Shown here: one piece after another, positions 49,344 to 54,757 of the stretch
Layout: each line of letters opens with the position of its first letter
How positions within the stretch are numbered: position 1 is the first letter of the stretch
NCBI GenBank assembly: GCA_027006175.1
Contig: JALTKS010000006.1
Location: 1 to 64,000, forward strand
From: Gammaproteobacteria bacterium
Lineage (GTDB): Bacteria > Pseudomonadota > Gammaproteobacteria > AKS1
Reading direction: 5' to 3'
Length of the DNA stretch: 64,000 nt
Program-made: the position numbers and the translations under genes
Notes under the pieces: generated by a model
The model's database searches: none
Told to the model about the DNA's origin: nothing
Seen by the model: the letters and a program-made list of their open reading frames with translations, nothing else

Positions 49344-51362
49344 TTAAAACCAGTCTTGCCTGTTTTCAGCCACGTGCATTAGTGCGGCAACGACTTGCTT
49401 GTCATATAGTTTTCCTGATTCTTTATAAAGCTGATCTAAAATGTCCTTGGTTGATAGTGGATCGCGATAAGCGCGCGGACTCTGCATGGCAACGAAGGCA
49501 TTGGCAACGGCTAAAATTTTAGCTGTTATCAGAATCTGATCACCATTGATTTTACCTGGGTAGCCAGTGCCATCAACGTGTTCATTTTTTTGTGCAATCG
49601 TTTCTAATACAGGACCATCGAAATCCAAATCAACTAATATGCTGGAAGTTTGTTGAATGGTTGTTTGTAGTGTTTCACGTTCTTCATCGGTAAGCTCGGT
49701 TGTTTTCTCCAAAATTTCTCTAGGAATGAATAATTTGCCAATATTGGCCAGACATGCTGCTAGCTCAAGTGTTTCGATATCTGCATCGGAAAGATTAATT
49801 TCCTGGGCGATTGAACGAGCAAGTTTAGTAGTCTTGGCTGAATGATTGGCGCTGTCTGGCACATAACTGTCGATAACATGTGTCAACGTCTGTACAAGGT
49901 GCTTCATTAAACGTTTGTGTTTATCTTCTGCATTCCGTAGGTCGGTAATATCATGAAGTACAATTAATGTATTGTATTCATTGATAGGGAAAAAACTACA
50001 GTGATAAGTTTTTTGTAGTTTATTAAATATTAATTCATTTACTGTAATAACAATACGGTTATTTTTATGTGAGTCTGATACGTAATTTTCAATTATACTT
50101 CCGGTTTCAGGCCCAAAGCTTGCTGCCAGGCTCTTTCCGACAAGATCATCAGGTGTTAGTTTAAAGAGAGACGCAACAGGAAGATTGGAAAACTGAATTT
50201 GTAACTGATTATCAATAATCAAAATTAAATCACCGATATTATTGGTGACTGTTTGTAAAACGTTTTTTTGCTGGGAGAGTAGTGCTGATTTCTCTTGTAG
50301 TGCAGTTGCATATTTTTGAGCGTATAGGCTCGCACCATGTCGCCATGAAGCAATAAGAATAAATAATAGTGCGGCTAAACCAAGTGAGAAAGAAATGATC
50401 AGAGATTGTCTTTGGGATTCTGATGCATCTAATGCTTCTATGGATGAAATCGTTTGCAATAATAGCCAATTTGTATCTTTAATTTCGCGGCTTATAAAAA
50501 GAATATCCTGATCATTGTAATTTTTCTTAATAGAAAAAGCGCCAGGGTTATCTAATGCATATGCAGCAGCAAGATTTGATGCATCATGAGGCAATTTAAG
50601 AAACATGCTCGAGTGATTTGCGTTGTTCTTGTTTAGGTAAATAACAGAGTTATGGTATCGACGAACGAGAATGCTTTCATCGCTTTTTGTGCTAAATATT
50701 TCTTTGTTGAGCAAAGGGTAAAGACTGTTACTTAAAGTTCTGGTGCCAATAATACTATAGTTATTAAGAACAGGAACAATGAAGGTAATTACTTGTTCAT
50801 TATGCTGGTCTAAATAAATATCTCGGATTTGCTTACGCCTGCTCCCAGCGACTTGTCGGGTTTTTTCGAGTGTTAGTTTATCGGGTTTAGGCATGCCGGG
50901 TGTTGCTACAATGACCTTGCCCTGATTTGACAGGATCGCAATACCAGAGTGTCTGATAGTAGGTATGTTAGCCTTGATTGGGCTTGGAGCAATATTTTCA
51001 AGGAAGCCATTTTTGTTTGCTGTCTGGGTTAATAAATTTATAAGGTAGGTACGTTGCGCCAGTTGAATGTTGTTATAATTGGTTTCATCGCCTTTGGATA
51101 ATTGTGACAAGTAAAGTTGTAAAGATTGATTTCTGGCAAGAGAAGTTAATGTGTCATATTGTGTTGACATCCAATCGCTTAGTAAGTCTTCACGAACATC
51201 GGCCATTAACGATAGACGATATTGCCAATTTTGAATTTCTCTCTCATATTCGTTGTTGGAGAGTTTATTAATTAACCCAATGCCGATGCCAATAATAGCA
51301 ATGAGTATAATGAGTGCAAGCCATTTGGAAAATTTAGTTTGTAATAACGATACCGGTTTCAT
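49344..51362 (-). CDS. Membrane HD-GYP-family protein (periplasmic sensor domain + PAS + degenerate HD-GYP)
   Basis: Two TMs flanking ~300 aa periplasmic domain, PAS-like region, then LAACLANIGKLFIPREIL...NEHVDGTGYPGKINGDQI...VANAFVAMQSPRAYRD; start MKPVSLLQ inferred. Confidence 0.85.
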   Translation of the reverse strand: MKPVSLLQTKFSKWLALIILIAIIGIGIGLINKLSNNEYEREIQNWQYRLSLMADVREDLLSDWMSTQYDTLTSLARNQSLQLYLSQLSKGDETNYNNIQLAQRTYLINLLTQTANKNGFLENIAPSPIKANIPTIRHSGIAILSNQGKVIVATPGMPKPDKLTLEKTRQVAGSRRKQIRDIYLDQHNEQVITFIVPVLNNYSIIGTRTLSNSLYPLLNKEIFSTKSDESILVRRYHNSVIYLNKNNANHSSMFLKLPHDASNLAAAYALDNPGAFSIKKNYNDQDILFISREIKDTNWLLLQTISSIEALDASESQRQSLIISFSLGLAALLFILIASWRHGASLYAQKYATALQEKSALLSQQKNVLQTVTNNIGDLILIIDNQLQIQFSNLPVASLFKLTPDDLVGKSLAASFGPETGSIIENYVSDSHKNNRIVITVNELIFNKLQKTYHCSFFPINEYNTLIVLHDITDLRNAEDKHKRLMKHLVQTLTHVIDSYVPDSANHSAKTTKLARSIAQEINLSDADIETLELAACLANIGKLFIPREILEKTTELTDEERETLQTTIQQTSSILVDLDFDGPVLETIAQKNEHVDGTGYPGKINGDQILITAKILAVANAFVAMQSPRAYRDPLSTKDILDQLYKESGKLYDKQVVAALMHVAENRQDWF

Positions 51363-51388
51363 AGGTACCTGATCCTTTTTTTGCCAGC

Positions 51389-52063
51389 TTATGAGGGTAA
51401 ATGAATCCACCATTCCCTCTCATTAAGAGAGTATATTGGAATGTAGTGCAGAATATTTTTGTCGGATAAAATTTCATTAACCTGATTGTCTAAAATTAAT
51501 GTATCACCGTCCAGATAAACAGCGAGTATGGCATGAGGAATACCCAGGTTAGTGTCTTCTAAAACGACTATTCGGCTTTGTAACTTTGTATGTCCAAGCC
51601 AACGCAATGAAAGTAGTTTGGTGATGGCGTAGTCTTCACAGTCACCACCGCGCTTAAGAAATTGCTTTGGGATAGCCCAGTAATCCTCTAAATTATAGTT
51701 ATCAATATCCAGGATATATTCTTTTTTGTTTGCATAGAGATTAATGTTTTTTAACTGGGTACGGATATTTTGTCCTTTAAGTGTTTCCAGATAGTCTAAC
51801 CATTGTTTTAAATGGCAGCGGTTAAATTGTTGGCTGTTGCAATTACCTTCGGGAATATCTTCGCGAACATGTCGGTCGAGCACACTCAACCATTGCGGAA
51901 AAATGCTTAAGTCAGTTTGTTTTGATTCTATACTGCCAAATACACCAGCAGCATGGGCAAAAGAGGGGTTAAAACTAAAAATCAGTAAAATGCTTACAAA
52001 TGCCATGAGTAAGCGAGAACGCCACTTATTTGGCGAAAACGGATAAAAATAGATACCCAACAC
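51389..52063 (-). CDS. lapG: LapG-type periplasmic cysteine protease (BTLCP, transglutaminase-like)
   Basis: Signal peptide; catalytic GGDCEDYAITKLLSLRWLG, HAILAVYLDGDTLILDNQ. Confidence 0.88.
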   Translation of the reverse strand: MLGIYFYPFSPNKWRSRLLMAFVSILLIFSFNPSFAHAAGVFGSIESKQTDLSIFPQWLSVLDRHVREDIPEGNCNSQQFNRCHLKQWLDYLETLKGQNIRTQLKNINLYANKKEYILDIDNYNLEDYWAIPKQFLKRGGDCEDYAITKLLSLRWLGHTKLQSRIVVLEDTNLGIPHAILAVYLDGDTLILDNQVNEILSDKNILHYIPIYSLNEREWWIHLPS

Positions 52064-52291
52064 ATTAGCTTCCTTATGTAATTATCTGATATTAAGACAA
52101 TATTATCGAACAAGCTATTTTTTACGATGAATACTTGTGTCAAAGAACTGTCACTAGTTCAAAACATCATATAACTCTTGGATTTTCAAAGCGTTAATGT
52201 CATTGTATAGTCTACGGCATTTATATAAAATATGTTGTATATCGTGGCGTGGGGAAGCGATATACGTTTTTCGGTAATAGGGTGGGGATGT

Positions 52292-53572
52292 ATGGCTTTA
52301 AAGTTACGTCAATTTGGTGTCGTGCTAGCACTGATCAGCTCGTTGTCTGTTGTTACCGGTGAGGTAGTGGCTGCAGATGCTGAAGCAGAGTTTAAAAAAG
52401 CCATGGCGGCCAGAAATAGCGGTGAGCTTGATGACTCCATTGTTATTTTTGAATCCATTCTTAGTCAAGAACCCTTATTACATCGTGCCAGGTTAGAGTT
52501 GGCGGTTGCTTACTATAGAGCAACGCGGTTTGATGAGGCGGAAAAAAATGCCAAGAAAGTACTGGCTGATCCCAAGACTCCAGCATCAGTGCGTGTTTCT
52601 ATAATTGCTTTTCTCGCTAAAATAAAATCAGAACGCAAGCGTTTCGAAAAAGTCGATAGTCGTTCGGGTGTATCTGTTTCGGCAGGGTATCTGTATGACA
52701 CAAATGTAAATGTTGGTCCTAACTCAGATATTATTAATCTTGGTACGACAACACTTCGCCTAGGGGCTGGCTCCAAGCCACAAGGTGATAGTGCGATCAC
52801 TTTATCGGGTACATTTAATTACAGTTACCAAACAGGCAAAGTTCTTAATATGGGTGGCAGATCGGCCGCGGTATTATGGCAATCGCAGGCATCTGTTTAT
52901 AGTAAACAATATGAGGATTTGTCTGAATTTAATTTGGATGTGGTGAGTTTAAGCACGGGTCTCGCTTTCGTTGCACCGGGTCACTGGCGTAGCAATGTTA
53001 GCTTGCAAGTTGATAATATTGAATTAGGCAGTGACTCGCTGGCTTTTTATACAACGCTTTTACCCAGTATTACCTGGCAGCTGAATAAAACAACAGACTT
53101 ATCGGTTAAAGCCTCGTTTGCGGATCGCGATTTTAAGCAACGCAATGATCAAGGGCGAAACAGTTTTTATAAATCGGTTGGTCTTACGCTAGGTAAGCGC
53201 TATATGAAAGGTAAGTTGTCATTACAGGCAGGCGTAAGCTTATTTGATGAAAATGCCAGGGATGATCGTTTTAGCCGTGATGGCGCGAAAGTGTTTTTAG
53301 GTGCGAACTGGCAAGCATGGAAAAATGGTTTAGTGTATGCGAGCGTCAGTCAGCGAGATGCTAAACATGATGCACCTGAGCCTCTCTTTAATGAAAAAAG
53401 AGATGAGCGTGAACAGCGTTTTGCACTTGGTTTTCGGCATCAATTCAGTGGCAGCTATTTTGATAAGTGGGTATTAAAAGGTAGTTATAGCAATACGGAT
53501 AATGCTTCTAATGTAGATATTTTTAAATATGATCGGGAAGTAACAAACGTTACATTTTCCAGAAATTTTTAG
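52292..53572 (+). CDS. Slam-like outer membrane protein (TPR + C-terminal beta-barrel; DUF560-type)
   Basis: Signal peptide, TPR (ARNSGELDDSIVIFESILSQEPLLHRARLELAVAYYRATRFDEAEK), barrel ending in ...EVTNVTFSRNF; start MALKLRQF inferred. Confidence 0.72.
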   Translation: MALKLRQFGVVLALISSLSVVTGEVVAADAEAEFKKAMAARNSGELDDSIVIFESILSQEPLLHRARLELAVAYYRATRFDEAEKNAKKVLADPKTPASVRVSIIAFLAKIKSERKRFEKVDSRSGVSVSAGYLYDTNVNVGPNSDIINLGTTTLRLGAGSKPQGDSAITLSGTFNYSYQTGKVLNMGGRSAAVLWQSQASVYSKQYEDLSEFNLDVVSLSTGLAFVAPGHWRSNVSLQVDNIELGSDSLAFYTTLLPSITWQLNKTTDLSVKASFADRDFKQRNDQGRNSFYKSVGLTLGKRYMKGKLSLQAGVSLFDENARDDRFSRDGAKVFLGANWQAWKNGLVYASVSQRDAKHDAPEPLFNEKRDEREQRFALGFRHQFSGSYFDKWVLKGSYSNTDNASNVDIFKYDREVTNVTFSRNF

Positions 53573-53626
53573 GAAACAGGCAACATAAAATTGATGTCAA
53601 TGCTTGTTCAGGTGGGGAGAACTATC

Positions 53627-54757
53627 ATGAGTAAATATAATTTAGTTTCAAGGTTCGTGGCACTATCATTAGCGACCATCACAACGTCAGCTTATGCTAT
53701 TACGGAAGAAGACTCTGTGCATAGCTGGGGGCCATGGGAAACATTGGTTCAGCCAGCTGCTGGTCCCCAAGCACCGGTTCCAATAACCTTATCAGGTCCT
53801 GTCGTACCGGGTTTTGGAGCGGGTGATGCTAGTCAATTCACTGCTCTTATTACAACACCAACGTCAACATCTACAACATCTGCTACGGAGTCGATATGTG
53901 CAGCTGGTTCAGCTTGTAGTTATGCATTGATTTATTCTCAAACAGGAATTAATCAAACCTCACGACAAACAGCAACAGCAACATTGTCTCCAATCCCTGT
54001 TGGTATTCGTGTTGCTGTTGATGGATTACTGGACATACAAGGTCCACTTGCTCTTGGCGATGGTGCTCAAGATACAACCACTTTAAATGTAACGAGTACC
54101 ACGGCACTGGCTTTAACTTTAGGCATCGAAAATGCACCGGTTACTTATAACTTAGGAGGTAATTGGTCAACATTTTCTATAGCCGATGGGTTTGCTTTTA
54201 TGAATGGTAAGACTGTTAATCCTATAAATACACCTTTTGCTTATGGTGATGCAACCATAGCTAGAGTTGTTGATGGTCGAGGCACTTTTACAAAAGCTAA
54301 CTTTATCTTTGGTGAAAGCACAGGAGTTAGTGATTTAAATGATTTAAACGCAGGCAATGTTACAGCAAACTACAATGGCAATGGGTTGTTAAGCCGTGGT
54401 ACGCAAGTAAATATAGCGGTTAATTTTGGTGAAGGCACGTGGAACGGTTCATGGAACGGTGGCAGTGATGCTGCGGGTATTAGTCCAACCCTGAGTACAG
54501 ATGGTGTAAAGGTTTTGACAGGTGTCGTTGGATTTAATGCAAGTGGTACTATTGATGGTGCTAATATTGTTTCAAACGTCATTTCTGCGAATGATGCCTC
54601 GGCTATTTCAGGGACAGTTAATGGCTCATTTTTTGGTAACAATGCGGGTTCATTAGCGGGTGCCGTTAATATTAACAAAACCAGAACGGATGGCACTTAT
54701 ACGGATAGTAATTATCAGGATTTATTTGTGACAACAATAAACGCAGGTGAACAATAA
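53627..54757 (+). CDS. Putative Slam-type substrate: exported protein with TbpB-like/hemophilin-like beta-barrel C-terminal region
   Basis: SPI signal peptide (no lipobox Cys, ends SAYA); VNFGEGTWNGSWNGG...VGFNASGTIDGAN...SAISGTVNGSFFGNNAGSLAGAVNI pattern. Confidence 0.65.
   Translation: MSKYNLVSRFVALSLATITTSAYAITEEDSVHSWGPWETLVQPAAGPQAPVPITLSGPVVPGFGAGDASQFTALITTPTSTSTTSATESICAAGSACSYALIYSQTGINQTSRQTATATLSPIPVGIRVAVDGLLDIQGPLALGDGAQDTTTLNVTSTTALALTLGIENAPVTYNLGGNWSTFSIADGFAFMNGKTVNPINTPFAYGDATIARVVDGRGTFTKANFIFGESTGVSDLNDLNAGNVTANYNGNGLLSRGTQVNIAVNFGEGTWNGSWNGGSDAAGISPTLSTDGVKVLTGVVGFNASGTIDGANIVSNVISANDASAISGTVNGSFFGNNAGSLAGAVNINKTRTDGTYTDSNYQDLFVTTINAGEQ

Follow-up and report, generated by a model that had tools for sequence, protein, structure and literature searches.

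The closest described counterpart of the locus analysed here is the DvhD/DvhG pair of Desulfovibrio vulgaris, in which a receptor composed of TM, dCache, TM, PAS and degenerate HD-GYP parts adjoins a LapG-type protease. DvhD binds c-di-GMP (about 0.1 µM) without hydrolysis, and reconstitution showed that it controls DvhG, a LapG-like protease (PMC13090378). The LapD/LapG system of Pseudomonas and its relatives shares the protease family, the inside-out logic and the consensus cleavage site [T/A/P]AAG (PMC13090378). LapG is also known to act on a non-T1SS surface protein, namely CdrA of Pseudomonas aeruginosa, which follows the two-partner (type Vb) route and is subject to a canonical LapG (PMC4694147). 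Slam/T11SS loci pair a TPR-plus-barrel outer-membrane protein with a neighbouring cargo that ends in an eight-stranded barrel (TbpB, fHbp, NHBA, hemophilin; PMC8406197, PMC12282271, PMC8560813). The two T11SS surveys searched make no mention of LapG, HD-GYP or cyclic-di-GMP, and LapG joined with Slam/T11SS was not found in the literature searched, which does not imply its absence elsewhere.

The window, i.e. the whole 64,000-nucleotide stretch of gammaproteobacterial DNA that was analysed, contains a receptor/protease gene pair and, divergent from it, the genes for a Slam-like protein and its putative cargo (Table 1). The original prediction described lapG directly upstream of an HD-GYP gene, and both ORFs are present as described; the Slam/cargo genes with their LapG-like site were absent from it. 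The pairing is not due to chance, as a LapG-like gene lies directly upstream on the same strand in 14 of 14 other related receptor loci of the class sample. The two ORFs abut or overlap, which makes co-transcription of protease and receptor plausible. The true receptor start is likely the inner Met at 51362, because the ORF of a close relative starts there. An Rfam search of the window had no matches, so that a c-di-GMP riboswitch from any known family was not seen.

Table 1 The receptor/protease pair and the divergent Slam-like and cargo genes (positions in the window)
Feature	Position	Strand	Remarks
LapG/DvhG-like periplasmic cysteine protease (BTLCP)	51389..52063	-	224-aa ORF; C-H-D triad and Ca site intact
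DvhD-like receptor: TM, periplasmic dCache-like domain, TM, PAS, degenerate HD-GYP	49344..51413	-	689-aa ORF
Intergenic region that separates the protease/receptor unit from the divergently transcribed Slam/cargo unit	52064..52231	.	Gene layout; mostly the same in relatives
Slam-like (T11SS) outer-membrane protein: N-terminal TPR and barrel	52232..53572	+	TPR_Slam and SlipAM in relatives; window protein below curated cut-off
Predicted T11SS cargo with signal peptide, then DSVHSWGPW...PAAG segment, a variable linker and a TbpB-like barrel at the C-terminus	53591..54757	+	TbpB_B_D; likely start 53627
DSVHSWGPW handle, conserved; only copy in genome	53711..53737	+	
PAAG, candidate site for LapG-type cutting, which would fall between the two Ala	53753..53764	+	Sequence, consensus, conservation

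The receptor ORF matches HD_5 (2.6e-39) and PAS_4 in profile searches, and contains none of the LapD_MoxY_N, GGDEF and EAL domains, in contrast to LapD. The predicted architecture of two TMs, a periplasmic part, PAS and HD-GYP is borne out, and the periplasmic part can be refined to about 280 aa with a dCache-type fold. The best PDB sequence matches of the receptor are the DvhD crystal chains 9rc0 (E 6.4e-41) and 9rbz (1.4e-37), followed by 5z7c (6e-22); active HD-GYP proteins stand far behind these cytoplasmic structures of DvhD. The same two chains top the fold search with the predicted structure of the receptor (mean pLDDT 79.5), and the DvhD periplasmic domain 9rc2 is the best isolated dCache fold match (E 1e-7, TM 0.73 by target length).

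The metal ligands are lost as originally listed, with HD changed to AN, HHE to KNE, the mid-helix His to Gln and vAD to vAN, and the loss is identical to that in DvhD. Asn replaces the HD Asp in all 24 gammaproteobacterial receptors, and in 23 of them also the vAD Asp. We compared twelve DvhD residues, composed of the eleven reported c-di-GMP contacts and R653, which was mutation-tested in DvhD. Eight of them (P567, L577, Y621, M646, R650, Y652, R653, and E668) are identical in the window receptor and K582 is conservatively replaced by Arg, whereas K520, Y523, and R569 are not conserved, a difference from DvhD that counts against the assignment. Several of the compared residues are common across HD-GYP domains, therefore they support nucleotide binding and are not specific to DvhD. 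Sequence and predicted structure identify the HD-GYP protein as a homologue of DvhD in which the metal ligands are missing and most of the nucleotide-contact residues are kept. By analogy, this supports a dead HD-GYP receptor acting as the LapD counterpart for LapG. The core of the original idea is thus supported by homology to DvhD. Its novelty is not, because the search for LapG-linked HD-GYP receptors in the literature leads to DvhD/DvhG (PMC13090378), a direct precedent that makes the LapD-like reading one of a known kind.

It is very unlikely that the HD-GYP protein has retained c-di-GMP hydrolysis, or merely senses a periplasmic ligand via its dCache domain, with no gating of the protease. 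Ligand sensing is the usual role of dCache and PAS domains, which would suit such a function; however, the metal ligands are gone in all relatives, the pairing with LapG is invariant, and DvhD sets a precedent of binding with no hydrolysis.

The protease ORF matches Peptidase_C93/BTLCP (PF06035, E 8.6e-16, above the cut-off), and its best PDB matches are the LapG proteins of Pseudomonas and Legionella. All 46 relatives keep the catalytic Cys, His and Asp as well as the Asp of the Ca site; the Glu of this site is kept in 45, one being undetermined. Against the LapG equivalog NF045674 of NCBIfam the window protease reaches 76.9 bits, far below the cut-off of 320 bits, which separates it from canonical LapG. 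In the tree, a branch with 100/100 support splits the DvhD-linked LapGs from canonical LapG. Compared with DvhG, the window protease is short and has a signal-peptide-like N-terminus.

The spread of the pair was followed in a same-order sample of four genomes, a class sample of 369 genomes and a phylum sample of 399 genomes (labels beginning with L, C and G below are our own for loci, contigs and genomes). Besides the window genome, full-length receptor relatives occur in 13 of the 369 class genomes, together with one PAS-less relative. Receptor relatives are also found in 8 of the 399 phylum-sample genomes, all outside the window's class; here LapG is mostly divergent, and a LapB-type exporter adjoins in two (L119, L121). 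At one further locus (L124, 4274-6403) a DvhD-like receptor is split in two ORFs by a stop and lacks a LapG on that contig piece, and is possibly decaying.

TPR_Slam is found in 12 of 12 aligned members of the Slam-like family and SlipAM in 6 of 12, the window protein itself scoring below the Pfam curated cut-offs. Slam-like genes occur at the pair in most relatives, usually in the same divergent layout, and in one genome (G125) the cargo lies beside the pair with the Slam gene elsewhere. At some loci (L039, L043, L044) the pair has no Slam, which speaks against the linkage. The Slam subtype and the receptor are shared by 11 genomes (15 and 15 of 369; 0.6 expected), and by family code 5 are shared of 9 and 8, counts that are not independent and make the significance of co-occurrence optimistic, because relatives share ancestry. 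This linkage to Slam and cargo instead of a T1SS and RTX adhesin distinguishes the window pair from DvhD/DvhG, just as the Slam/T11SS route distinguishes it from LapG/CdrA.

The C-terminal barrel of the cargo matches Pfam TbpB_B_D with 27.7 bits, above the cut-off of 26 bits. The cargo model is weak overall (pLDDT 47.5) and moderate in the barrel, and its fold matches are TbpB, LbpB, NHBA, fHbp, and hemophilin, which are known or likely Slam cargo. Unlike the described cargo, the window protein lacks a lipobox and has at its N-terminus a WGxW handle with a LapG-like site. The LapA retention domain, targeting helix and DP motif are absent from it.

The cargo sequence that directly follows the signal peptide is DSVHSWGPWETLVQPAAG (in the fuller stretch, EEDSVHSWGPWETLVQPAAG), where PAAG agrees with the LapG consensus. 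Of the 11 receptor-anchored loci with a visible cargo, 10 have PAAG in this position. The exception, with PLAG, is L045 (4.4-9.4 kb), where the PAS-less receptor relative occurs with LapG and Slam. Among 591 background ORFs, 22 contain [TAP]AAG within their first 80 aa. Outside the C-terminal half, the invariant residues of the long cargos are the D, S, W, G, W, A, A, and G of the handle/PAAG segment. Because the divergent Slam/cargo genes carry a LapG-like site, the neighbouring cargo is likely a dedicated substrate of the window LapG.

We scanned one genome per species, covering 84,980 species, with a pattern that fixed part of PAAG and left free the residue before AAG (four-residue spacing) or the final Gly (five-residue spacing). 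The scan returned 31 stretches, 30 of which are real signal-peptide proteins, almost all adjoining Slam; the other match (L080) was judged a chance one (PAAF, no signal peptide, no Slam). At the unfixed positions, P precedes AAG throughout (T in Amphritea, L082, a natural TAAG variant), and G is found throughout at the end. A window-type LapG lies on the same piece for 19 of the 30 motif genes. Genome searches located it for nine of the remaining eleven, together with one that had been counted before. L093 and L094, which complete the set, are the same loci as L035 and L041, where the pair had already been identified, so that all 30 motif genes occur in genomes with a window-type LapG. Among the motif proteins there are also short ones of about 105-150 aa, which have no barrel. 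Next to short Pro-rich ones (L064, L065, L069, L070, L072, L083, L091, L094, and others), the following gene often encodes a VPLPA/PEP-CTERM sorted protein, which hints at an exosortase link.

We put at roughly two in three the probability that the pair forms a DvhD/DvhG-type inside-out switch, with the neighbouring Slam-exported (T11SS) cargo as the predicted substrate, cut at PAAG. At high c-di-GMP the receptor would bind the nucleotide and restrain the protease, and falling c-di-GMP would set the protease free. Gene linkage and the motif point to the neighbouring Slam cargo as the substrate rather than an RTX adhesin. The cut would take place between PA and AG, about 20 residues into the mature N-terminus and just past the DSVYxWGxW handle. 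The most speculative step is that the handle may hold the cargo on the periplasmic side, perhaps at Slam, and that the cut then would release the cargo; that the handle binds the TPR part of Slam in the periplasm is our guess. The cut might also represent a maturation step instead of release. The receptor is of a kind already known, and the probable substrate, the Slam cargo, looks new. The LapG switch would thereby reach T11SS/Slam export, a route with neither c-di-GMP control nor a LapG-type release protease in the literature searched.

A natural comparison is provided by four class-sample genomes that have the Slam subtype without the receptor (L142, L143, L144, L145). In two of them (L143, 6.1-11.5 kb; L144, 2.9-7.4 kb) the Slam gene adjoins canonical LapG-LapD. 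The small cargo at these loci contains DSVYQWGHW followed by GADPSQITEPTAAG (L143) or GADPSDVTEAPEAG (L144), much like the GEDPTDVAEATAAG of LapA, and both cargos have a DP together with the LapA-like segment. The site is TAAG in the L143 cargo and the non-consensus PEAG in the L144 cargo. The L143 cargo matches retention_LapA of NCBIfam only over the cleavage segment, at positions 91-116 (E 1.6e-4). The other two genomes (L142, L145) have FecR-type neighbours with no such site. As DSVYQWGHW is kept and the PAAG part is swapped for a LapA-like segment, the handle and the site segment appear to evolve separately: the handle is common to both kinds of locus, and the segment after it seems to track the neighbouring protease (two loci, one of them with PEAG). 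These sequences suggest canonical Lap control of T11SS loci as well.

The same comparison bears on the possibility that DSVYxWGxW...PAAG is a recognition signal for Slam or a chaperone, or the maturation site of another peptidase, unrelated to LapG. Such a function would be in keeping with the presence of the segment in both long and short proteins beside Slam, and with the WGxW also found in other Slam-linked FecR-type proteins. However, the replacement of the PAAG part at L143 and L144 matches the adjoining canonical LapG, and an AAG preceded by P or T agrees with the LapG consensus, which makes this explanation improbable. We consider it fairly probable that in Gammaproteobacteria c-di-GMP, via a DvhD-type dead receptor and its own LapG, gates the cleavage and release of Slam/T11SS surface proteins, with the site co-evolving with the adjoining protease-receptor type. 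The same Slam subtype with two LapG kinds and two site kinds thus offers a natural comparison for the evolution of protease/substrate specificity.

In contrast to the host of DvhD/DvhG, the window host is a gammaproteobacterium that also has canonical LapD-LapG. The check for a canonical LapD elsewhere in the genome identified a separate LapG-LapD pair on contig C19, which includes the only PF16448 match in the genome; a LapB-type exporter comes next, where the contig ends. The LapA retention module, with GEDPTDVAEATAAG (TAAG), is located on contig C81, the first bases of which complete the LapB exporter. From these gene contents the window pair is a parallel second system and no replacement, because a separate canonical LapG-LapD-LapB-LapA set exists. 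That the window LapG substitutes for a missing LapD system is ruled out by this complete canonical system. DvhD-type receptors are thus not confined to Desulfovibrio, and here one coexists with a canonical Lap system in the same cell. The canonical operon is split over two contigs (lapG-lapD on C19, lapA on C81), and a large sensor histidine kinase gene lies upstream of its lapG-lapD.

With a LapA carrying TAAG in the same genome, the window pair might instead control a large T1SS adhesin elsewhere (for example this LapA), Slam being a mere neighbour and PAAG incidental. The known substrates of DvhG and LapG are mostly T1SS adhesins, the pair stands beside a LapB-type exporter at the two loci outside the class, and at the gammaproteobacterial L043 beside genes for a cadherin-domain protein and HlyD. 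We nevertheless regard this as unlikely: the LapA contig belongs to the canonical LapG-LapD-LapB operon, Slam and the PAAG cargo recur beside the pair across families, and the site turns LapA-like where the adjoining protease is canonical LapG. The inside-out switch acting on the Slam cargo thus remains our preferred reading.

At L043 (1-7782) and L044, the DvhD-like pair lies near a cadherin/Ig-domain protein and HlyD-type genes, and probably serves adhesin control there. FecR weakly resembles the LapA retention module. FecR-like proteins on contigs C38, C69, and C110 were considered as LapA-type substrates, which was not supported, as their partial matches are weak and below the cut-off, and they have no obvious site. 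On contig C110 (L049, L050, L062), another Slam-like gene lies beside the genes for two FecR-domain proteins, which have WGRW and C-termini resembling those of Slam cargo.
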